From NCBI GenBank assembly GCA_033763895.1, contig JANRJQ010000010.1:686146-750145 (forward strand): a stretch of DNA of 64,000 nucleotides, written 5' to 3'. The DNA comes from Chloroherpetonaceae bacterium (GTDB lineage Bacteria > Bacteroidota > Chlorobiia > Chlorobiales > Thermochlorobacteraceae). The translations under genes and the position numbers were made by a program. Positions within the stretch are counted from its first letter, which is position 1. Every line of letters starts with the position of its first letter. Of this stretch, positions 30,824-49,380 are shown in pieces. The notes beneath the pieces are model-generated. The model ran no database searches and was not told the origin of the DNA. It worked only from the letters and a program-made list of their open reading frames with translations.

Positions 30824-30864
30824 TGGTCTGAGTCTTCATTTTGAGAAATAATTCAATTGATGAA

Positions 30865-32016
30865 ATGAAAACCAAATTATCTTATTGGGTTCATGTTGCT
30901 GCATTGTCTTTGATGATGTTGATTTCTTCGTGCGGTTCAGAAGTATCATATAAACTAAGCACAATGCCTGAAGGCGTTTCGTTTACAGGCGAGCTATCGA
31001 AAGTTAGATATGATGAGGCATCGAAATCGCTTGTGGTGAAAGGGGAATTAACAACAAGTGAATTTAATGCGCTGATTGCCCTTTCAAATGATGCTGAATA
31101 CCAAAACGCCGTGATGCGGCTTTTTGAGTGGACGAATCGGGAAGAGGATTCTCGAATTGGGTTGCTTCGAGTTACCGTAGAGCCACTTTATGAATCGCTC
31201 TTTTCTTCGATTACTGCGGCATTCACAACGGCTTATCCAAAGGCCGATATTCGGCTTTCACCACTTCAAACCGACAGTGCGCTTGAACGAATCTTTTCAG
31301 GTGATTGTCGTTTTGCCCTCACAGTAAGAAGATTAACTGCGTCAGATAGTTTGCGAATTCAGGAAGCTAAAATCGCTGTTAATCAAATTGGATACTTGAA
31401 AGATGCCGTTTGTTTGGCGATTCATCCCACAAATCCTGTAAATGCCACTGATCTTTCAACGCTTCGTGAATCATTAAAAGGAAACTTGAAAACTTGGAAA
31501 GAGATTGCCTCGTTCGGAAGCTCGGAATCGCCGCGATTTTATGTGCCAAATGATTTTAGAAAAGCTTTCTTAAAAGATTCCTTGCTGGGCGGTGCGGAAT
31601 TTGGAAGCTCAGTCATTTTTCTTGATACCGATGAAGCGATTCTCGATTCTACTCAAACCAATAAACACGCGGTTGGATTTGTATCGATGCTCAAGATAGG
31701 TAATGCATTGGATGTTCGGGCAGCAACACGAGATACCACACGGTTCAAGATAATGGGACTAACAGAATCCAAGGTTATTCCGGCTGCAAGGCCGTTTCAA
31801 GCCAATGTTTTGCTAAAGAAGTATCCTTTAGCATATACAATTTATGCGGTGTTTAGAACTGATCTTGGGATGTTGCCCGCCGGCTACTCGCAGCACTTAA
31901 AAGGAACGCGTGAAGGTGAAGGACAAACCTTGGGTTTCAGGGCTGGTCTTGTACCGCTTGCTGCTCGAATCGAACTCAAAGATCCGGAAGCAGAAAAAAA
32001 TGCGCAAGAGCAATAA
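30865..32016 (+). CDS. Diverged PstS-like periplasmic lipoprotein
   Basis: A 383-residue exported lipoprotein (lipobox LISSC) with a PstS/ModA-type binding fold: LLRVTVEPLYESLFSSITAAF for strand 1/helix 1, then YLKDAVCLAIHPTNPVN and a TWKEI equivalent of the NWKEL segment. However the phosphate-coordinating loops of PstS are gone: GGGSGTG corresponds to a segment with LQTDSAL, and SRENSSGT to VPNDFRKAF. About 100 residues precede the core. Start at 30865 (ATG, good signal) is preferred over an upstream TTG. No ABC permease is linked; in Bacteroidota such genes often lie near TonB/ExbBD genes, not seen here. Confidence 0.75.
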   Translation: MKTKLSYWVHVAALSLMMLISSCGSEVSYKLSTMPEGVSFTGELSKVRYDEASKSLVVKGELTTSEFNALIALSNDAEYQNAVMRLFEWTNREEDSRIGLLRVTVEPLYESLFSSITAAFTTAYPKADIRLSPLQTDSALERIFSGDCRFALTVRRLTASDSLRIQEAKIAVNQIGYLKDAVCLAIHPTNPVNATDLSTLRESLKGNLKTWKEIASFGSSESPRFYVPNDFRKAFLKDSLLGGAEFGSSVIFLDTDEAILDSTQTNKHAVGFVSMLKIGNALDVRAATRDTTRFKIMGLTESKVIPAARPFQANVLLKKYPLAYTIYAVFRTDLGMLPAGYSQHLKGTREGEGQTLGFRAGLVPLAARIELKDPEAEKNAQEQ

Positions 32017-32086
32017 GTATTATATCTCGATTAACGACAAGAAAATTTTTATAACGGTGATACAACAAAAAACCCCTTTATTAAAA

Positions 32087-33001
32087 ATGACAACGGTTCA
32101 ATCAAGAATCGTCATGTTGCTTTTTCTCATTTTTCCTTTGCTTTCGTGTAATCGAGAGCAAGAACAAACCACCACGAGTGGCACATTAAATGTTGTCTCT
32201 GATGAAGCGGTTGGTAAAATGACCGACTTGCAAATTGCAGATTTTATGCGAAGTTGGGATCAAGCAAAAATCACCAATGAATCTGCACGGACGAGAATTG
32301 CCGTCGAAAAACTCTTGAATAAAGAAACGGATTTTATTGTCATCTCACGCGAATTAAAGCCTGATGAACAAGCCGCTGCTAAAAAAGAAGGGCTTGAGTT
32401 GGTGTCGAGGCCGCTTGCTATGGATGCGCTTTGTTTTATCGTTCACCCCAAAAATCCGGTAACAAAAATTACCTTAAAGCAGGCAAAAGAAATTTATTCG
32501 GGAAAGATAAAGAACTGGAATGAGCTTGGAGGGCCGAATCTCCCGATTCGTCTTTTTGCCACAAGTCCGAATGACGGGCAACGAGACTATTTGATTGATT
32601 CTTTGCTTCGAGGGGAAGCATTAGATACAACCGCTTACCCTGCAAAATATGCAACAGATGTATTGGATTATGTTTCGCAATTTGAAGGCGCGTTGGGCTA
32701 TACAAGTACTGCTTTGGCAAGGCCGGCATTGAATGTACGTGCTTTGGATACATCAAAGTTTAAGGTAATGGCACTAGCCAAAAACGATAGTTCCGCTTTT
32801 ATCAAACCTTTTCAACAGAATATTTACGATCGTGAATATCCTCTTTGGTATTTCGTTTATTACTATTATATGTACTACGGCAGATTGGCTCGAGGGCTCT
32901 CGGCGTATGTTTCAAAAGAGGGTCAAAAAATTTTGGAGAGAAACGGACTCACTCCGTTTCAACAACATATTACCGTTGTTAACTTTACGGAGGAGCAGTA
33001 A
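32087..33001 (+). CDS. Second diverged PstS-like periplasmic lipoprotein
   Basis: A 304-residue lipoprotein (signal from ATG 32087, lipobox PLLSC) with the same fold as the gene before it. DFIVISRELKPDEQAAAKKEGLEL, DALCFIVHPKNPVTKITLKQ and the very PstS-like EIYSGKIKNWNELGGPNLPIRLF are visible, but the second phosphate loop reads SPNDGQRDYL instead of SRENSSGTYEF. The C terminus YPLWYFVYYYYMYYG has an unusual Tyr run. It lies 70 bases after its paralogue. Start uncertain: an ATG at 32000 would give a longer basic leader. Phosphate binding is doubtful. Confidence 0.78.
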   Translation: MTTVQSRIVMLLFLIFPLLSCNREQEQTTTSGTLNVVSDEAVGKMTDLQIADFMRSWDQAKITNESARTRIAVEKLLNKETDFIVISRELKPDEQAAAKKEGLELVSRPLAMDALCFIVHPKNPVTKITLKQAKEIYSGKIKNWNELGGPNLPIRLFATSPNDGQRDYLIDSLLRGEALDTTAYPAKYATDVLDYVSQFEGALGYTSTALARPALNVRALDTSKFKVMALAKNDSSAFIKPFQQNIYDREYPLWYFVYYYYMYYGRLARGLSAYVSKEGQKILERNGLTPFQQHITVVNFTEEQ

Positions 33002-35077: not shown

Positions 35078-36169
35078 TTATTTCACCAACAATTGCCATT
35101 CTTCTTCTGTCAACACGCGTTTACCTGAAACATTCTGAAGCGAGGCTTCTTTTTCAAAGTAAGCGATTCGTGCTTCGGGTGAAGGGTGTGTCGAGAGGAA
35201 TGACCCCCAATCAAGGGCATTTTCAGTATTCTTAATTTTTTTGAAAAGGGTTGCTAAGCCGGAGATATCGTAACCGATTGATTTCAAGGTCGTAACCGCA
35301 AATTCATCCGCCTCGGTTTCGTCAGCCCTGCTGTAGCTAAGATCAAGCAAACCGCCTGCTTGTTGGATTAAGATTGCAGAGAGGCCTGTGACATCGCCGA
35401 AAATCAACGCGTATAGAATTAAAAAAAGTGAAGCACGAGCGACTTTTTTTAGGCTATGTTTTTTATAAATGTGGCCGGCTTCATGCGCAAGAAGTCCTAA
35501 TAATTCAGGCTCCCGTTCCATCTCTTTAAGAATTCCGCGATAAACAACAATTGTGCCACCCGGAAGTGCAAACGCGTTTTTTATATTCTTTTCAGCGATA
35601 ACAATCTTAAAATGCCTTGAGCTATCCGGAGAAAGTGAACCCACAAAGGCTTCGCATTTTGACATTAGCGTTTTTGTTGCGAAGGAGGTATCAATCTCAA
35701 ATTCACTTGAAACCTGCTCATATGCTGCTTTGCCCAAGGCTTCTTCTGCTTCTTGCGGAATCAATTCCGCTACGCCGAGAGAAATCCAATCAATTCCAAG
35801 CGTAAAAAATAGTACAATAAAAAGAATGATACTGATACCTATTGCAATAGCAGGTTTGAACCCTAAATCGATGTAATCGCCTTTTCGGGTATAGCCGTAA
35901 GTGTTAAGGAGATTGAGAAGTTCACTGTCGTTACAGCGAGCAATCGGGAGCGTTCCATACTCTCGCTTTAGGATTGGAAAATCAAAGAGAATGTCGCCAT
36001 TAGGGTGGGTTTCGCGAATTCTAAATTCGCCGATAAAAAACTCTCGCTCGAATGTGTTGGATTTAACCCAAAGTCCTGAGCGGCTAAGCCTTGCCGAGAC
36101 ACGCTCAACAGGGCTGCTTTCACTGACTTGAAAATAAAGCGACGATTCCCAAATCCCTTCTCGAATCAT
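35078..36169 (-). CDS. M48-family membrane metalloprotease
   Basis: A 363-residue zinc protease. One transmembrane helix at about 106-124 follows a 100-residue N-terminal domain of unknown type. The catalytic motif is LLAHEAGHIYKKHS (H229, E230, H233), with the third ligand in ADETEADEFA. It resembles BepA/LoiP and HtpX-related proteases that work on envelope proteins. Last gene of a minus-strand unit behind the corrinoid adenosyltransferase (9-base gap), so it is transcribed with B12 genes although a role in B12 use is not apparent. Confidence 0.85.
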   Translation of the reverse strand: MIREGIWESSLYFQVSESSPVERVSARLSRSGLWVKSNTFEREFFIGEFRIRETHPNGDILFDFPILKREYGTLPIARCNDSELLNLLNTYGYTRKGDYIDLGFKPAIAIGISIILFIVLFFTLGIDWISLGVAELIPQEAEEALGKAAYEQVSSEFEIDTSFATKTLMSKCEAFVGSLSPDSSRHFKIVIAEKNIKNAFALPGGTIVVYRGILKEMEREPELLGLLAHEAGHIYKKHSLKKVARASLFLILYALIFGDVTGLSAILIQQAGGLLDLSYSRADETEADEFAVTTLKSIGYDISGLATLFKKIKNTENALDWGSFLSTHPSPEARIAYFEKEASLQNVSGKRVLTEEEWQLLVK

Positions 36170-36178
36170 ATCCTTCTC

Positions 36179-36739
36179 TTAAAATTCGATGCCAAGCCGT
36201 GCTGGAACTCCTTTATCGAAGTAGTGCTTGACTTTTCGCATTTCGGTAATGAGGTCAGCTTTTTCTTCAATTTCCGGCCAAACCTTATGGCCAGAGATCA
36301 CCAATTCGCAGGGACGCCCTTTCGCTTCATAAAGGGAGATGATTTCCATCAATTCCTCTTCTTTAATCAAATGATAAGCCACGGCTGCAAGACCTTCATC
36401 CATAATCAAAAGATCGATTGTGGATTCGCTTAGCAGGCGCTTCGCTTCGGCAAGCCCTCGTTTTGCTTCACGAAAATCTTCATCTTGATTCTTAAATCGA
36501 AAAGTACCATCAGGCATCATGCGTTCGCAGCCTGTTGGATAAAGCTCAATTGGATATCCGTCTGTCTTTAATTTTCGAAGAATGAAACGCTCGGAGTAGT
36601 GTTCATTTTCGCCGTCAAACCCTTTGTCGAATTGGATAATTGCCACTTTTTTTCCGGCGCCAAGTGCGCGTATGGCAAGGCCCATCACCGAAGTGGTTTT
36701 TCCTTTTCCAAAGCCGTAATAAAGATGAATAAAACTCAT
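36179..36739 (-). CDS. cobO: Cob(I)yrinic acid a,c-diamide adenosyltransferase (CobO/BtuR)
   Basis: Transfers the adenosyl group of ATP to cob(I)alamin or cob(I)inamide to give the coenzyme form. The 186-residue protein begins with the unusual P-loop YYGFGKGKTTSVMGLAIRALG (the order is like BtuR/CobA), has LLIMDEGLAAV in place of the common LDEINYA motif, VISGHKVWPEIEEKADLITEMR, and the family C terminus KGVPARLGIEF. It follows the TonB receptor gene by 9 bases, linking uptake of corrinoids with adenosylation. Confidence 0.9.
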   Translation of the reverse strand: MSFIHLYYGFGKGKTTSVMGLAIRALGAGKKVAIIQFDKGFDGENEHYSERFILRKLKTDGYPIELYPTGCERMMPDGTFRFKNQDEDFREAKRGLAEAKRLLSESTIDLLIMDEGLAAVAYHLIKEEELMEIISLYEAKGRPCELVISGHKVWPEIEEKADLITEMRKVKHYFDKGVPARLGIEF

Positions 36740-36748
36740 ATGACTGTA

Positions 36749-38785
36749 TTAAAACGATAGTTCATAAATGATTCTTGCATTTCGAGGAGGCATTGGGAAT
36801 GAGCGAATGATGACATAATTCTCTGAGAAAACGTTTCGAATGTCAGTAATAAGCTTGTGTTTTAGAAACTCGGTCACAAATTCATACGAGAGTGTGATAT
36901 CAAAAAGAGAATAGGATGGAAGAAAATTTGATTGTGAATTTTCAGGAAGTGAAAATCGATAACCGCTTTGGGACACTGATGAATGCAATGAAAAATTTTG
37001 ATACTTGAGAAACAAACGCAAATTAAATGAATGAAAAGGAATATAGGGTAGTTGAGAATTAAAAGTAGGGGAATTCTCGGTTTTGTCTTTGACCGATTGA
37101 TACGAGTAATTGATCTCGATTTCCGATTCAAAAAGTTCAAGTGGAAACACGCGTAAACGGATGCCGGTTTCGATGCCAGTAGAAAGTGATTGCCCGACAT
37201 TTTGTACCGACCAATTAAACGCATCTCGAGGAATAGATATGATTTTATCATCGGAATTAATAAGATACCCGTCAATATAAGTTTCAAAGTCAAGCTTTGC
37301 CGGTTGATAAGCCAAGGCATAGCGAATCCCAAGATTTAATTGGCCAGCAATCTCAGGGCGAAGATTGGGATTGCCGACTCTCGTGAAATAGCGTTCGTTG
37401 ATACTGGGTAACCTTAAGTTTCGACTGTAAGTCGCGCTGATTTTTAATGTGGTGGTTGGAATCGTATATCCAAGCGATAGAGAATAGGCAAACGCTTGAA
37501 AAAGACTTGTATGAGAAGCTGTGATTTCAGTTTCCGTTCGACGGTCACTTAAACTTTGAAATGATAAACTTGTGATGAAGTCAAGGCGATCGAATCGGCT
37601 CTGCACGATTATTCCGAGCGTAGCTTGTGAGCGATTGATTTGATCAAATTCCGGAAGCGTGGTAGAAAGAAAATTTTCTAACCAATCGGCACTTAACGAA
37701 GCTTCCACCGCTGAAATACCGTTCATAGAGAAAAGGGTTTTGGAGAGCGAACCGCCCCCATACAATCCAATAAGGTTGTACCGATCATCGACACCCCCTG
37801 TGACCAATGCATTCGGATCACGAAAAAGCGTTTGATGAAACTCTGCTTTCCCGGAGAGTTTTAGTAGTGCGTCTGTAAATACATCATGTGAATAGTTGAA
37901 TTGAAGAAATGAATCGATGTTTTTTAACCTTTGAGCCGAATTTTCTTCATTTCCAATAATGGCGGCATTTGGAAGGCCTCGGTCTGAAAGGAATGTAAAT
38001 GCAGTAAGAGCATAATCGCTTTTGCCCTCGGAAAGAAGGCGATTCTTAAAAAGTTTTGCTTCTATTCGTAGTGATTGAAGATCGGAATTCTGCCGTTCAA
38101 AGAGGGTTTGATTTTCAGAAAGGTAAGTGTAGCGGCCACTGGCCGAAATATACTCTGAGGAGAAATTTATTTGCCCAATGTCATTCAAAGACTTTCTGAT
38201 TTCTCCTCCGAGTCTTTTTTCTCCGAAAGCACCAACAAGCAGTTGAATTTTGCCGGTTGAAAATAGCGTTTTCTTTGGTAAAGGAGAAGATTCTAAATTG
38301 AGCACACTGCTTACCGGAAGGGCTATAGCAGGGGAATTAAGAGATTCATTTCCCGCTTGTGAAAGGGAAATTTTTGAAATCGATTGAATCGAAAGTCTTC
38401 CCAAATCAATTTGACCCGTTTGGTTATCCGTGAATGGAATTCCATCGTAAAGAACCATTGTGTGATTTGAGGAAAGTCCACGCAGCGATAGGGTTTTGAA
38501 TCCACCGATTCCCCCATAGTCTCGGAGAAAAGCCCCACGAAAAAAACGAACCGCGTCTGAAACGGATTGAGGTGAAAAGCGCATAAAGTCTTTCGCGGAA
38601 AGTTCTTGAAATGGAAGCAGTGATGAAATTTCTTGAGAAAGCCTTGTTTCTTCAACTAACTTTTCCTTTGATTCAAAAGCTTTAAGTGTATCAACCGGTT
38701 TCTTAGGCTCACCCACTTGAGCATCAAGGGGGATGTTTAACATCAAGACAAGAAGGAAAAGAGGAACTGTATTTTTCAAAATCAC
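36749..38785 (-). CDS. btuB: TonB-dependent outer membrane receptor, BtuB-like
   Basis: Outer-membrane receptor of 678 residues with a signal peptide (residues 1-22). The plug domain includes FSPQSVSDAVRFFRGAFLRDYGG and LSLRGLSSNHTMVLYDGIPFTDNQTGQ (VxxRGLxxxxxxVLxDGIP). The barrel has the TonB-receptor pattern INERYF and RVGNPNLRPE, and ends in an aromatic residue (YELSF). The cobalamin substrate is inferred from the adenosyltransferase gene 9 bases downstream. No B12 riboswitch is visible in the short gap before it. Only a 47-base gap separates it from the large barrel gene, so both may be in one operon. Confidence 0.82.
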   Translation of the reverse strand: MILKNTVPLFLLVLMLNIPLDAQVGEPKKPVDTLKAFESKEKLVEETRLSQEISSLLPFQELSAKDFMRFSPQSVSDAVRFFRGAFLRDYGGIGGFKTLSLRGLSSNHTMVLYDGIPFTDNQTGQIDLGRLSIQSISKISLSQAGNESLNSPAIALPVSSVLNLESSPLPKKTLFSTGKIQLLVGAFGEKRLGGEIRKSLNDIGQINFSSEYISASGRYTYLSENQTLFERQNSDLQSLRIEAKLFKNRLLSEGKSDYALTAFTFLSDRGLPNAAIIGNEENSAQRLKNIDSFLQFNYSHDVFTDALLKLSGKAEFHQTLFRDPNALVTGGVDDRYNLIGLYGGGSLSKTLFSMNGISAVEASLSADWLENFLSTTLPEFDQINRSQATLGIIVQSRFDRLDFITSLSFQSLSDRRTETEITASHTSLFQAFAYSLSLGYTIPTTTLKISATYSRNLRLPSINERYFTRVGNPNLRPEIAGQLNLGIRYALAYQPAKLDFETYIDGYLINSDDKIISIPRDAFNWSVQNVGQSLSTGIETGIRLRVFPLELFESEIEINYSYQSVKDKTENSPTFNSQLPYIPFHSFNLRLFLKYQNFSLHSSVSQSGYRFSLPENSQSNFLPSYSLFDITLSYEFVTEFLKHKLITDIRNVFSENYVIIRSFPMPPRNARIIYELSF

Positions 38786-38832: not shown

Positions 38833-41448
38833 TTAAAAGGTAAAACCAATTGCGGAGTAGAATCCTACAAACTCTCTTGAACCGCCAAGTGTAAAACTTA
38901 GAACAGAGTTAGCGTCAACAAAAGCAAGCCAGAAACCACCGCCAAAACCGGGATGCCATAAAGACGAGGTTTCATTCTCAAGATAAACACGCCCGGTTTC
39001 AGCAAAAGAAATTAGCCCAAAATCGGTAGGAACAATAAAAGCAAATCGAAAAAGCTTTTGCCGCCACTCTGCTGCAAATACTAGAGATTCATTTCCCAAA
39101 AAGCGTTGCTGGTCGAACCCTCGAATGCTTCGCTTTCCCCCTACGGAAGCGAGTTCAAAAAACGGCGCATCGCCAATCACCTTTTCATGAGTTGCCCGCA
39201 TTGCAAAAACATCTCCGCTATTAAACATCGAAAAATAAATTCTCAAATCCGTACGAAACTTTGAAACCCAAGTCCTTGCTCCAAAAATGTTTGGAATCGA
39301 TGAAAAGGAACTCTCAAATAAAATCCCATTTGTTGGGTTGAGCGTTTGATTTCGGCTATCATAAATCATCGTGGCGTTCGCTTTAAGAAGAAAAAGATCG
39401 CGAGAGCCATAAGTATTGGAAATGAAAAGAAGCTTGGTTGTTGCATCGTCCTCGTCCGGTTCTGAGAACACAAATTTACTTTCAAGCCCAATCTTTAACC
39501 GAAGTTGATCAAAAAGTTTGAAATAACATCCGTTGTATAAACTATAATGAGTTTGGCGAGCTAAGTAATGCCGTGATTCATCAAGTGAATCAGAAAAAAC
39601 CGTTTCATTTCCTACGCCATAAAAGCGGATCACTTCAAGCTGAGATGCACGCGCAATGCTTTCAAAGCCGAGGTTTCCCTTTTCACCAAATGCAAAGGGT
39701 GAGTCAAAAGTAACATCAAGCACGCCGCGCGTTGTTGATGGTGAATAGGCAGCGGAGATTGAAAGTGAGGATTGGTACGGGATTTTTTGAAACCCATAGG
39801 TGATGAGATTGGGCTTATATCCCAAGATGATTCCATATTCAGAAGCATATCGAAACACCAAATCGAACCACCACTGTGAACCGAAATCTCTTGGAGGATT
39901 TTTAAAGTTCAAACTATCGAGCGGAAAATCAATAACCTTAATATTGCTTCGGTTCAAATATCTTTTTTCTGACCCAGTGAGAATATCATTTTTTCCTGCG
40001 TGGCAAATGGTTTCAACTTTTGCATTGCATTGTATGGAATCCTTTCCACCTTCGGTTAATACTCGAATGCGAATTGGAGTTTGAAACCCGTTGATGCTCA
40101 CGATATCATCACCTTCTCCTAAATGAATTCGCACTTCGCTCGTTTCTTTTGGATAAAACTGGCGGTAGAAAATAATAGAAGAATCGATGCTGCCATTTTT
40201 TTTGAGTCGATACCCCTTAACACGTATGCTGCCGTCGCTTTCGACAAAGATATCAAAGCGTTCTTTTTTTTGGCTTCCGTACACTTCCGCTTCTTCAGCC
40301 ATCAAGAGGTAATAATCGTCGCTTAAAGACTTTAATTTTTTTCGACGTTCTAATAGCGATGTCAAAATCCATTCCCCTGATTGCTTGTAGATTGTATTGG
40401 GTAACATTTTAACAGCAATTCGAATAGAATCTTCTTTAAGGGTTTCAAGGAAGGAGGCCGTTACAGAATCCCACTTCGCTCGAGATAAACTGCCATATAA
40501 CCGCCGATCCATATATCTGCCCGACCAAGTGGCAAAATTTGCGGAAGGAAAATCAGAACCAAAGCTTTTGATTTGAGGCAAAATCTGGGTGCCAACCCAA
40601 GGGAGAATGCCGTCGTATCTTGCAAAGGCTTGATCACGATCTTGGGGAATCGCTTGCCAAGTTTTAATCCCGGTACTCGTTGTAATTCGAGAAAACTTCC
40701 ATTGCCCCACATGCCGATCCCAGTCCCCCATAAAAACATCAAGAAGCCTTACCCTGAGAAGTGCTGCAGCATCGACCTGATCCTCAGAATCCTTTTCGAG
40801 CTTTTTCAAAAGACCAATGGTGTCTTCGATTTTTTCAATTGTTTCAAAATCCTCGCCTTCTCCTTCAAGACCTTTTGGATTCAATTCCAATGTTCCCAAA
40901 AGCCCAGCGAACATTGTGCGATACTCTCCAAGGATAGAATCATCGGGCATCACATATAGCTCCGGCGGAGAGGAAAGAATACCCAGCTGTTTTTGAAACG
41001 ACGATGAAATAAAAATTGAATATGGAAATGAAGCGCTGATTTGATCCTGTACCACATCGGCAGCAAGCCCGAGTCGAAGCTCTTCTGACAAGACTTTTTT
41101 CGGATCTTTATTCAACGAGCGAAATTTGTATCGAAGACCGTTTGCTCCAATAAAATGAAGGGTTTTGGTTTGTAAACCACCACCAAGCTTAAGTGGTCTT
41201 AATCCTCCGGAAAGGGTATCAAGGCGAAGAACTTTTACCCACAAAGGGGTTCCCCAAGCCAAACGCCAATGGCTTCCTAAGAAAAACTCTCCAAACCCAG
41301 AAATGGAATAATCAGGCGAAGCCGCAAGATACAAGGAGTCAACGCGTGACTGAGCCTTCGTGACGCCTAAAACAGGAATTAGAAAATGCGTAATGCAAAG
41401 TAAAAAGATGAAACGAACTGCGGTTCGAAAGGCGGTTGTTTTTTTCAC
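38833..41448 (-). CDS. Kinase-like domain fused to BamA/TamA-type outer membrane barrel
   Basis: An 871-residue exported protein with a GTG start and signal peptide (about 1-32). Residues 85-290 look like a Fam20/HipA-class kinase: glycine-rich GGGLQT followed by LRYKFRS (K108), a hinge-like PPELYVMPDD, catalytic GDWDRHVGQW (D244) and metal-site IPQDRDQAF (D270). The middle (about 405-510) is a beta-rich region with GEGDDIVSI. From about 530 the chain reads as a beta-barrel of the bacterial surface antigen (D15) family, with GGKRSIRGFDQQRFLGNES as its signature and a final aromatic. It may phosphorylate a surface or periplasmic target; activity is inference. Related Bacteroidota proteins exist, often with extra domains. 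Confidence 0.7.
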   Translation of the reverse strand: MKKTTAFRTAVRFIFLLCITHFLIPVLGVTKAQSRVDSLYLAASPDYSISGFGEFFLGSHWRLAWGTPLWVKVLRLDTLSGGLRPLKLGGGLQTKTLHFIGANGLRYKFRSLNKDPKKVLSEELRLGLAADVVQDQISASFPYSIFISSSFQKQLGILSSPPELYVMPDDSILGEYRTMFAGLLGTLELNPKGLEGEGEDFETIEKIEDTIGLLKKLEKDSEDQVDAAALLRVRLLDVFMGDWDRHVGQWKFSRITTSTGIKTWQAIPQDRDQAFARYDGILPWVGTQILPQIKSFGSDFPSANFATWSGRYMDRRLYGSLSRAKWDSVTASFLETLKEDSIRIAVKMLPNTIYKQSGEWILTSLLERRKKLKSLSDDYYLLMAEEAEVYGSQKKERFDIFVESDGSIRVKGYRLKKNGSIDSSIIFYRQFYPKETSEVRIHLGEGDDIVSINGFQTPIRIRVLTEGGKDSIQCNAKVETICHAGKNDILTGSEKRYLNRSNIKVIDFPLDSLNFKNPPRDFGSQWWFDLVFRYASEYGIILGYKPNLITYGFQKIPYQSSLSISAAYSPSTTRGVLDVTFDSPFAFGEKGNLGFESIARASQLEVIRFYGVGNETVFSDSLDESRHYLARQTHYSLYNGCYFKLFDQLRLKIGLESKFVFSEPDEDDATTKLLFISNTYGSRDLFLLKANATMIYDSRNQTLNPTNGILFESSFSSIPNIFGARTWVSKFRTDLRIYFSMFNSGDVFAMRATHEKVIGDAPFFELASVGGKRSIRGFDQQRFLGNESLVFAAEWRQKLFRFAFIVPTDFGLISFAETGRVYLENETSSLWHPGFGGGFWLAFVDANSVLSFTLGGSREFVGFYSAIGFTF

Positions 41449-45942: not shown

Positions 45943-48900
45943 ATGATTAGAGCCCTTTTAGGGATTTTATCCTTTTTGATTGTTTACTTCAATTTTGCTG
46001 CACCAAGTTTCGCTCAACCCGAGTCTTACAGTCATCCTGAACTAAAATGGAAAACCATTACCACGAAGCACTTCACCGTTAGCTTTCATGAGGGTTCGGA
46101 AAGAAGTGCACAACTCACGGCGAAAATCGCGGAAGAAATTTATGGACCGATTACTTCTTTATATGGTTTTGCGCCACAACGCGTGGATATCATCATAAAA
46201 GACACCGATGATTACTCAAACGGGGGCGCATATTTTTTTGAAAATAAAATTGAATTATGGGCACCGGCATTGGAGTTTCATCTAAGGGGTCAACATGATT
46301 GGTTAAGAAATGTGATCACTCACGAATTCACGCATATCGTCACACTCAATGTCGCATTTAAGTATGGGCGATTAATTCCCGCTTTCTACTTTCAAGTTTT
46401 CGGTTACGAAACCGTACGCCGCCCCGATGTGCTGTATGGTTTTCCAAATATTCTCGTTTCTTATCCAATTGCTGGGCTTAATGTTCCTTTTTGGCTTGCA
46501 GAGGGCGTTGCACAATATCAAAGAAGTGAACTTTCTTATGAAACTTGGGATAGCCACCGGGATATGATTCTCCGTACTGCAACGCTTGAAGGAAATTTTT
46601 GGAATCTCGATGAGATTTCGAATTTCATTGTCAAATCAGGGTTTGGAGGAGAATACGGATACAATTTTGGTTTTGCGTTCACGCGTTTTTTAGCAGAGCG
46701 ATATGGCGAGTCTAAGTTAAAAGTTCTACTTAAAAATTTCAGCTCCGTTGCCACTCTGAATGTTCATCGAGCGCTCGAGGAAACGTATGGGAAAAGCTCT
46801 GATCTGATTTATCGGGAGTGGAAAGAGTACACCGAAAGAAATTACCGCGCTTCTGTTTCTGAAATTTTGAAAAAAGAAGTAAAAGGAAAACAATTAGAAT
46901 TGGATGGAACATTTCTTTCCCCTGTTTATTCACACAATCGCGATACCCTGTTTTATATCTCCAATAATGGCGCTGACTTTGGGGGTTACGGTCTCTATGC
47001 ACTTCCAATAGATACGCTTTCAAAAGTAAGAAGCGAAACAAGTTTATCACCCACAACGCTTCACCAATTGGTCAATATTTGGGGGTCCACAGAGGGTCAT
47101 GAAAAGCAAACACATGCGGCTTCTTGCAGATTTTGCGGATATCATTATTCTGAATCTCAATTGGCTATTGGCGTAGATTCAAGAATTACATTAAGCCCCG
47201 ACGGAAGAAAATTGTATTACTCAAAGTATGTCGGGACTGACTTTGAAATTCAACGCTTCAACGATCTCTTTGAATTCGACTTAGCAACTAAAGAAGAAAA
47301 GCGACTTTCAAAACAAATTCGCGTTGAAACACCTTTTCCCTCAAAGGATGGGAAGCGATTACTCGGCATTCATCAAAGTGATGGCACAATGAATTTGGTG
47401 GAAGTCGAGTTACCAACGAGCGATACACTTGTTACGCCCCGTGGTGTGAAGTTTTTAACTTCAATGAAATCGGGCGAGCAGCTTTATCAGCCGATTTATG
47501 CACCGAATGGCAGTGATGTCATTGTCGCACTTGGAAAAAGAAATAGGCGGCAATTAGTGATGTGGAATCGCGAAACGGGAACAATGATGCCACTCGTGAA
47601 ACCGTTCACACCTACCGATCCAACGGATGAAAACTTAGATGAACGTGATCCAAATCTCACGACGGATGGATTGAATTTGATTTTCTCATCGAATCGGGGA
47701 GGGATATTTAATCTGTATGAATATGAATTTTCAACCGGCAACACGCGACAATTGACAAACGTTACAAGCGGTGCTTTTATGCCGTCTTACGGTGAAACTG
47801 GAAAAGTGGCATATTCACATTTTACATCAAAGGGTTATAAACTTGCTTTTTTAGAACAGAAAAAAACCGATGCCGGATCACCATCGCTTTTTGATTCAAG
47901 ATACATCGTCAATCCTATCCGAATTATTCCCGATTCAGGCGCATCCCCTTTGGGTTTGAGCGATGTTATAGTTCGAGACTTGAATCAGTATAACGATTCT
48001 ATTCCACCCTCTTTCGAATCAAAAGAGTATTCAAAAATTTTTACACCACCGATGATTTTGCCTTTGGTTCGTTTTGATGCTTATGCCAAAACAAAAGGAA
48101 CATTGGCTGCCGATGCTTGGAGAGCCGCGAAGTTCGGGATTGCATTTAACTCAGCCGAAGCATTGGGAAATCTGAATTTGAGTGGATTAATTACTATTGC
48201 TCCCGGTTCATCAGTTAGTGGCGGTTCAGAGGGAATTGCCGGACTTTTAGAATTGGAGCGAGACGCATTCTTTTCTTTGGAATACAGTGATAAAAACTTT
48301 CTACCTGCGTCGATGTTGCCTAAGTTCAATTTGGATATTTTTCATCTTACCCGAAATATTCAAGACGGAGCGAAAATTGGCGGTTATCTCTCAGACTCAA
48401 GTCCGCTTGATAGTGCAAACGCAAATGTGTTTTTTGGATTAACTCAATATGAACTATCAACCCGTTTTAGAATTCCAATACAAAACGCGCTCTTTCAAGC
48501 AAGTAACTTTAGACTCTCATTTGCACTGAGTCCTTATAATTCAAAAATCGGTTCGTTCTTTTGGGAGCCATTGGGGCAACGGATTACAGCAAGTTCGGAA
48601 ACATACTTTATAGGAAGAACAGCGTCGTTTATTTGGAACTTGGATTGGAGAATTCGCTCGCTCACATCAACCATAAATCCAATTGGGTTTCTATCAAGAA
48701 TTCGTGTGGATTATGAAGACAGTAAACTTCAACGAGATATTACCTTCAATGAATCAACCGGAACTTTTACACCGGTCTATCAAAATTATCAATTCTTTCG
48801 GGTAACCGCTGATTGGAATTTTCACTTTCCATTACCAACTTGGTCAAATGAATTCAATCATTCATTAACCATAAGGCTTTTTTCAGCAGCAAATTTTACA

Positions 48901-49380
48901 GCCCCTACCGATTTCTTTTTTCAAAATTTCATCTCGGGCCTTTTAGGAATGAGGGGCTATGAGTTTTATGCCATTGGAGGTGATAAAGCTGCATTCCTGC
49001 ATGCCGAATACCGAATTCCGCTGGCGCAGCATCTTGATATGCAGTTCTTCCAGTTTTATTTCGATCGGCTTTATCTCTCTACTTTTTTTGATATTGGGAA
49101 TGCTTGGAATGGAAATACGATACCATCTCCAAATACTTGGAAAAAAGACATTGGATTTGAATTGAGACTTGAAGCACCCTCATTTTACTTATTCCCAACG
49201 CGCATCTTTATAAGTGGTACTTATGGCATCGACCGATTCACCGAACCCGTCAGACAAGGCTTCTTTACTCAAGATGGCAGCACGGTGATTATCTATGGCG
49301 GCGAGTGGCGGTTTCATTTAGGAATACTATTTGATTTCGATTTCCTCGCAGAGCGAACAGGAATATTCAGAAATCCTTAA
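45943..49380 (+). CDS. Peptidase MA-like / TolB-type propeller / outer membrane barrel fusion
   Basis: An 1145-residue exported protein with a signal peptide (to about residue 24). Residues 35-300 are a gluzincin metalloprotease domain: HEFTH (H127, E128, H131) and the third ligand E187 in WLAEGVAQY. Residues about 300-660 contain WD40/TolB-like blades (LSPDGRKLYYSKY, LTTDGLNLIFSSNRGGIFNLYEYE), interrupted by a cysteine pair CRFC. From about 700 to the end the chain reads as beta-barrel strands with a D15-like GLLGMRGYEFYAIGGDKA and ends near an aromatic residue. This would be a surface-exposed or periplasmic peptidase tethered to its own barrel. Family members occur in Bacteroidota/Chlorobiota. 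Confidence 0.8.
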   Translation: MIRALLGILSFLIVYFNFAAPSFAQPESYSHPELKWKTITTKHFTVSFHEGSERSAQLTAKIAEEIYGPITSLYGFAPQRVDIIIKDTDDYSNGGAYFFENKIELWAPALEFHLRGQHDWLRNVITHEFTHIVTLNVAFKYGRLIPAFYFQVFGYETVRRPDVLYGFPNILVSYPIAGLNVPFWLAEGVAQYQRSELSYETWDSHRDMILRTATLEGNFWNLDEISNFIVKSGFGGEYGYNFGFAFTRFLAERYGESKLKVLLKNFSSVATLNVHRALEETYGKSSDLIYREWKEYTERNYRASVSEILKKEVKGKQLELDGTFLSPVYSHNRDTLFYISNNGADFGGYGLYALPIDTLSKVRSETSLSPTTLHQLVNIWGSTEGHEKQTHAASCRFCGYHYSESQLAIGVDSRITLSPDGRKLYYSKYVGTDFEIQRFNDLFEFDLATKEEKRLSKQIRVETPFPSKDGKRLLGIHQSDGTMNLVEVELPTSDTLVTPRGVKFLTSMKSGEQLYQPIYAPNGSDVIVALGKRNRRQLVMWNRETGTMMPLVKPFTPTDPTDENLDERDPNLTTDGLNLIFSSNRGGIFNLYEYEFSTGNTRQLTNVTSGAFMPSYGETGKVAYSHFTSKGYKLAFLEQKKTDAGSPSLFDSRYIVNPIRIIPDSGASPLGLSDVIVRDLNQYNDSIPPSFESKEYSKIFTPPMILPLVRFDAYAKTKGTLAADAWRAAKFGIAFNSAEALGNLNLSGLITIAPGSSVSGGSEGIAGLLELERDAFFSLEYSDKNFLPASMLPKFNLDIFHLTRNIQDGAKIGGYLSDSSPLDSANANVFFGLTQYELSTRFRIPIQNALFQASNFRLSFALSPYNSKIGSFFWEPLGQRITASSETYFIGRTASFIWNLDWRIRSLTSTINPIGFLSRIRVDYEDSKLQRDITFNESTGTFTPVYQNYQFFRVTADWNFHFPLPTWSNEFNHSLTIRLFSAANFTAPTDFFFQNFISGLLGMRGYEFYAIGGDKAAFLHAEYRIPLAQHLDMQFFQFYFDRLYLSTFFDIGNAWNGNTIPSPNTWKKDIGFELRLEAPSFYLFPTRIFISGTYGIDRFTEPVRQGFFTQDGSTVIIYGGEWRFHLGILFDFDFLAERTGIFRNP

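Follow-up and report, generated by a model that had tools for sequence, protein, structure and literature searches.

An Omp85 barrel protein with an N-terminal kinase fold: a new family of candidate exported phosphotransferases

Analysis of a 64,000-nucleotide stretch of DNA (hereafter the window) revealed a gene whose product combines a predicted signal peptide, a domain with a kinase fold, a linking β region and a C-terminal Omp85 barrel, a new family of known fold in a new architecture. Genes for phosphatases and for polyphosphate metabolism adjoin members of the family and the gene may therefore encode a phosphate-transferring enzyme that acts outside the cytoplasm. Our favored reading, held with some reserve, is that of a phosphotransferase which is exported, held at the outer membrane by its barrel, and works with a phosphoesterase. 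The reading frame and the motifs given in a preliminary description of this DNA were all found at the residues named there, including the glycine-rich turn, GDWDRHVGQW from residue 241, IPQDRDQAF from 267 and RGFDQQRFLG from 776. The export proposed there also agrees with a signal visible on inspection of the sequence. The full-length protein occurs as a single copy in its genome and is laid out as follows.

38833..41448, minus strand: whole gene (871 amino acids, GTG start), comprising a putatively exported kinase-fold domain, a β region and an Omp85 barrel
41350..41448, minus strand: predicted signal peptide, residues 1–33, Sec type by inspection, with AQS near residues 32–34
40294..41349, minus strand: kinase-fold domain, residues 34–385, from the AlphaFold2 model and structural matches
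39973..40293, minus strand: ten-strand β region, residues 386–492, linking the kinase fold to the barrel, from the models
38833..39879, minus strand: 16-strand Omp85 barrel, residues 524–871, from the model, the TamA match and Pfam Omp85
39094..39123, minus strand: RGFDQQRFLG, residues 776–785, the Omp85 loop-6 RGF motif, from conservation in 64 sequences

The barrel is the sole part of the protein recognized by Pfam, and likewise by NCBIfam, with a match to Omp85 (PF01103) over residues 562–828 at an E-value of 2.7e-9. A model of residues 386–871 (pLDDT 87.1) consists of approximately ten short strands followed by 16 barrel strands, and the barrel matches that of TamA with a Z-score of 26.2 over 295 residues. 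Within the loop-6 motif, Arg782 and Gly785 are invariant and Arg776 and Gly777 near-invariant across the 64 sequences. These results bear out the BamA-type (D15/surface-antigen) barrel with an RGF motif that had been proposed from the sequence. The β region at residues 386–492 is not covered by the structural matches listed, and no POTRA domain was found in the protein, either by profile match or in the model. A second chain of enzyme-then-barrel type may lie nearby in the window, at 45943–49380, where a protein of 1145 residues matches Peptidase MA and PD40 in Pfam and, by eye, has an apparent C-terminal outer-membrane barrel (MRGYEFYAIGG).

Residues 34–515 gave only scattered chance matches in Pfam, NCBIfam and PHROGs, also when 88 relatives were scanned singly; the window protein itself had no match in the defence-system library, nor the kinase domain in a sequence search of the PDB. 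The AlphaFold2 model of residues 34–515, built with 88 relatives, has a mean pLDDT of 89.9 and a pTM of 0.89, and comparison with Foldseek and VIA-align showed it to have a two-lobed kinase fold of the protein-kinase-like type (Pfam clan CL0016). The best Foldseek hit in the PDB was CtkA (3akk, E 1e-6), with Fam20C at approximately 1e-4, followed by Fam20, Rio2, PI4K-II and HipA. VIA-align, run on the candidates supplied by Foldseek, gave Z-scores of 15.0 for CotH (r.m.s. deviation 3.9, 254 residues aligned), 14.4 for PI4K-II beta (4.0, 255 residues) and 13.7 for the HipA-type kinase CtkA (4.6, 241 residues), with Fam20C at 11.1 and PI3K, HipT and Fam20 near 11. CotH, PI4K-II and CtkA are thus close to tied as structural neighbors of the model, and these scores place residues 34–385, as modeled, in the atypical bacterial/PI4K branch of the kinase fold, with CotH or PI4K-II, rather than Fam20, as the nearest named family.

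Profile comparisons were made with the same families. CotH (PF08757) was absent among the 25 of 36 matched families listed for the 88 relatives, all of which were at chance level; hhalign to CotH gave a score of 26.2, compared with 13–20 for seven unrelated families, in the correct register and with a probability of 1.2%. The window protein had no match to HipA_C (PF07804) or to Fam20C (PF06702) at E-values up to 10, and hhalign to HipA found nothing. A search for Fam20C in bacterial genomes returned no match, and its controls likewise returned none. The Fam20 kinase domain has conserved disulfides; residues 34–385 of the window protein contain no cysteine, so disulfides of that type are not present. 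Consequently, of the Fam20/HipA-like kinase put forward in the preliminary description, a kinase fold from that structural neighborhood was recovered in the model, whereas a specific Fam20 identity was not, given the higher scores of CotH and PI4K-II, the lack of cysteine and the lack of a Fam20C profile match.

Conservation was assessed in 105 domains from loci found by whole-protein search and drawn without selection for any motif. Only 31 of the 340 columns of the kinase domain are at least 90% conserved, and among them are Asp237, Asp242, Asp244, Arg245, Gln249, Trp250, Asp270, Asp272, Arg110, and Lys114, a concentration of key motif residues greater than expected by chance. Asp237 is found in all 105 domains and Pro268 in 100. 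The elements of the putative active site are as follows.

41167..41184, minus strand: glycine-rich turn GGGLQT, residues 89–94, between two N-lobe strands (Gly90 in 98/105, Gln93 in 94/105)
41107..41121, minus strand: R110-S-L-N-K114 (Arg110 in 96/105, Lys114 in 101/105), role inferred
41044..41046, minus strand: Asp135, in the helix that follows strand three, a possible αC acid pairing with Arg110 (Asp in 99/105), role inferred
40699..40728, minus strand: catalytic loop GDWDRHVGQW, residues 241–250, from conservation and alignment with the CotH catalytic loop
40624..40647, minus strand: metal-binding loop PQDRDQAF, residues 268–275 (Asp270 in 97/105, Asp272 in 96/105), aligning with WDFN of CotH

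The catalytic loop contains both Asp242 and Asp244, conserved in 102 and 96 of the 105 domains, together with Arg245 (101), His246 (92), Gln249 (97), and Trp250 (102), and IPQDRDQAF holds both Asp270 and Asp272. The expectation that Asp244 and Asp270 would be conserved in homologues was therefore borne out. We propose, from these alignments, that Asp244 is the catalytic aspartate, that Gln249 occupies the position of the metal-binding asparagine, and that Asp270 (and Asp272) are metal ligands. The assignment of Lys108 as the catalytic lysine did not hold. Lys108 and Arg110 both lie within YKFR, and no conserved lysine was found on the third N-lobe strand, position 108 being Lys in only 16 of the 105 relatives and Val in 51; Arg110 and Lys114 are conserved instead. 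Arg110 probably stands where the ATP-binding lysine is normally found and, judged from sequence, Arg110 or Lys114 probably takes the place of Lys108. The placement of Arg110 at the lysine position and Gln249 at that of the metal-binding asparagine is suggested by the PI4K-II motifs DRGNDNW, IDNGLAF, and FKPKNEEP, the first two of which resemble DRHVGQW and QDRDQAF of the window protein.

The whole nine-residue signature is intact in 88 of the 105 domains. Approximately one in seven of this unselected sample departs from it, with 15 clearly degenerate or altered, and degenerate members that retain the barrel were found at loci L014–L016, L035, and L046. In one genus of Chlorobiales, all four sampled members (L215–L218; also L014–L016) have changes at Arg110, Asp135, His246, Asp270, and Asp272 and keep the barrel. 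Such degenerate domains on a retained barrel suggest that pseudokinases have probably arisen within the family and that some members live without the signature. It is conceivable, if rather unlikely, that this applies to the family as a whole and that the fold is kept as a docking or phosphate/nucleotide-sensing module that replaces POTRA in an Omp85 assembly factor. The arginine at the lysine position, the altered domains on intact barrels and the absence of POTRA from the model would all fit such a module, whereas the full signature persists in most of the sample, the joint loss of five residues in one genus is the pattern expected when an active site is lost, and the phosphoesterase fusions and synteny described below suggest phosphate chemistry.

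When 296 genomes from the phylum were searched with the whole protein, 201 gave matches, some of them to the barrel only, and a profile scan of GTDB yielded at least 585 loci; the 80 loci kept belong to Ignavibacteria, Chlorobiota, Bacteroidota, Gemmatimonadetes, and a few others. The GTDB scan was baited with the motif D[WG]DR[HMG]x[DG]QW and conservation within it is biased because the loci were picked by that motif, and conclusions were drawn from the 105-domain sample instead. Relatives borne on plasmids are annotated "hypothetical protein", and phages gave no match to the family. Architectures, judged from the length before and after the kinase domain in 192 domains, were phosphoesterase-kinase-barrel in 91, kinase-barrel in 78, kinase alone in 22, and phosphoesterase-kinase in one. 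An N-terminal extension of phosphoesterase length is thus present in approximately half of the relatives (91/192), and in the examples tested it is a calcineurin-type phosphoesterase (PF00149), a domain that Pfam did not find in the window protein. A stand-alone phosphoesterase gene adjoins the kinase gene at L048, L060, and L076, and at L138 (8129–12094) a kinase lipoprotein, a phosphoesterase lipoprotein and an Omp85 barrel are encoded by three adjacent genes separated by gaps of 16 and 20 bp. Lipoboxes seen by eye at the N terminus of some phosphoesterase-kinase-barrel and stand-alone forms, for which the start codons are uncertain, are consistent with a location on the periplasmic face.

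These architectures bear on a second alternative, type Vd-like secretion, in which the kinase domain would reach the cell surface by way of the barrel, a route that has been proposed for PlpD and its patatin domain. The order of enzyme and then Omp85 barrel is the same, and a type Vd-like option was raised for the Omp85 "Metallo" class by Heinz and Lithgow (PMC4104836). We regard it as improbable for the window protein, which has no POTRA; moreover, the separate kinase and phosphoesterase lipoproteins beside a separate barrel gene at L138 imply that the barrel need not carry the enzymes, and the lipoboxes, inspected by eye, have no obvious acidic export signal. Kinase folds can also catalyze nucleotidyl transfer (SelO) or glutamylation (SidJ), and a reaction of this sort, to which the altered nucleotide-contact residues Arg110, Lys114, and Gln249 might point, is more doubtful still, since the DRH and metal loops stand in kinase order and spacing and the nearest folds, PI4K-II and CotH, are both phosphotransferases.

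Gene neighborhoods were surveyed at 100 loci (up to 20 kb each, 21 families) alongside 20 control regions from the same genomes. An HD and/or PycTM protein was found at 57 loci (16 families), an SdiA-regulated-type propeller at 26 (13 families; immediately upstream and in the same orientation in 23 of the 26), PPK1 at 19 (10 families), a SixA-type phosphatase at 11 (6 families), a class III cyclase at 22 (5 families), and a family of ∼790 residues at 25 (5 families; L166:6016–8418 and 24 more), a tested member of which has no Pfam match. None of the six occurred in the 20 control regions; the loci are related to one another, which inflates plain probabilities and makes the family counts the better measure. 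At L166, L168, L179, L184, and L189 the HD/PycTM, PPK1, SdiA-regulated and kinase genes follow in this order on one strand, and at L129, L130, L132, L135, and L180 the PPK1 gene abuts the kinase gene convergently. CotH genes were also considered as neighbors and are not enriched (10/100 regions versus 2/20 controls). In one family (L152–L163 and L171, for example L153:11221–13839) the next gene after that of the kinase encodes a class III cyclase with TPRs, often accompanied by a stand-alone PycTM gene, a cyclase and PycTM combination resembling a Pycsar pair (PADLOC PycC E 2e-6, and PycTM).

Downstream of the kinase-barrel gene in the window lie three genes on the same strand, with successive gaps of 47, 9, and 9 bp.

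36749..38785, minus strand: BtuB-like TonB-dependent receptor (Pfam; weak TonB-B12 match), 47 bp downstream
36179..36739, minus strand: CobA/BtuR corrinoid adenosyltransferase (Pfam)
35078..36169, minus strand: M48 peptidase (Pfam)

The BtuB-like receptor had been suspected of forming one unit with the kinase-barrel gene. Its position and strand are as described, but a functional unit is not borne out because no BtuB-like gene was found beside the genes of relatives: BLAST with the three downstream genes against those of the relatives' loci returned no BtuB, two distant CobA hits at a remove of several kb, and a single distant M48 hit. The order seen in the window was not met with elsewhere. 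The association with phosphoesterase and polyphosphate genes is the better lead. The window gene has none of the recurrent neighbors of its relatives, PPK1 is encoded in this genome on contigs other than that of the window, and a search of the genome with the phosphoesterase of one relative as query, run without a positive control, found none. Approximately 6 kb from the kinase gene, at 30841–33001, two overlapping reading frames both encode PstS-like periplasmic binding proteins (PBP_like_2).

Taken together, the kinase fold, the intact signature in most domains, the barrel, the fusion or adjacency of a phosphoesterase, and the recurrence of neighbors argue for an exported phosphotransferase; the arginine at the lysine position, the altered domains, the lack of a profile link to known kinase families, and the lack of both a phosphoesterase and PPK1 near the gene in the window argue against it. 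Such a protein would be exported by Sec and inserted with its N-terminal part facing the periplasm, like other Omp85 proteins. Asp244 would activate the acceptor hydroxyl, Asp270 and Asp272, with Gln249, would hold the metal, and Arg110/Lys114, paired with Asp135, would hold the donor phosphates. The calcineurin-type phosphoesterase may be the working partner of the kinase domain and, as it is fused in approximately half of the relatives, the two probably add and remove phosphate on one envelope substrate, or recycle phosphate; the recurrent PPK1, SixA, and HD/PycTM neighbors point to polyphosphate or phosphate metabolism. ATP is not known to be present in the periplasm, which makes the phosphate donor the main puzzle. 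A speculative answer, to which we give little credence, is that the enzyme takes its phosphate in the envelope from polyphosphate, or from some other phosphate compound that is exported, in place of ATP, and has its own phosphoesterase. It draws on the PPK1/SixA synteny and the altered nucleotide-contact residues and, if true, would solve how a kinase works in an ATP-poor periplasm. If the enzyme is active, a kinase/phosphoesterase pair is tethered to the outer membrane, phosphorylation of protein, lipid or glycan in the envelope of Bacteroidota and Chlorobiota becomes testable, and the question of an extracytoplasmic donor is raised.

Among known kinases, CotH (PF08757; Bacillus cereus 5jd9) is the best structural match. 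In the profile alignment, which is statistically weak, Asp244 falls on the catalytic-loop Asp of CotH and Asp270 on that of WDFN; the CotH mutants D228Q and D251A are inactive (PMC7821199). Identity to CotH is only 13%, and the window protein is anchored by a barrel and is no spore protein. PI4K-II (4wtv, 4yc4) matches in fold, yet at 9–10% identity, and the likeness does not imply that the substrate is a lipid. CtkA and HipA share the fold, whereas the window protein is predicted to be exported and membrane-anchored, and no HipB antitoxin gene is adjacent, the flanking genes in the window encoding a VWA protein and the TonB receptor. With Fam20C the protein has in common the DRH catalytic motif and, by prediction, an extracytoplasmic location. 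The 16-strand barrel and loop-6 RGF motif are features of the Omp85 superfamily, but TamA and BamA have POTRA domains where the window protein has a kinase fold and β region. In the literature, mainly open access, no description was found of a kinase domain fused to Omp85. Heinz and Lithgow (2014) defined an Omp85 "Metallo" class with PF00149, which they called metalloprotease, and the word kinase is absent from their paper (PMC4104836). The relatives described here and that class very probably make up one protein family, the class carrying PF00149 in front as do many relatives, although not the window protein. The kinase fold, which current libraries miss despite its presence in many genomes of several phyla, would thereby explain the unassigned middle of the "Metallo" proteins.
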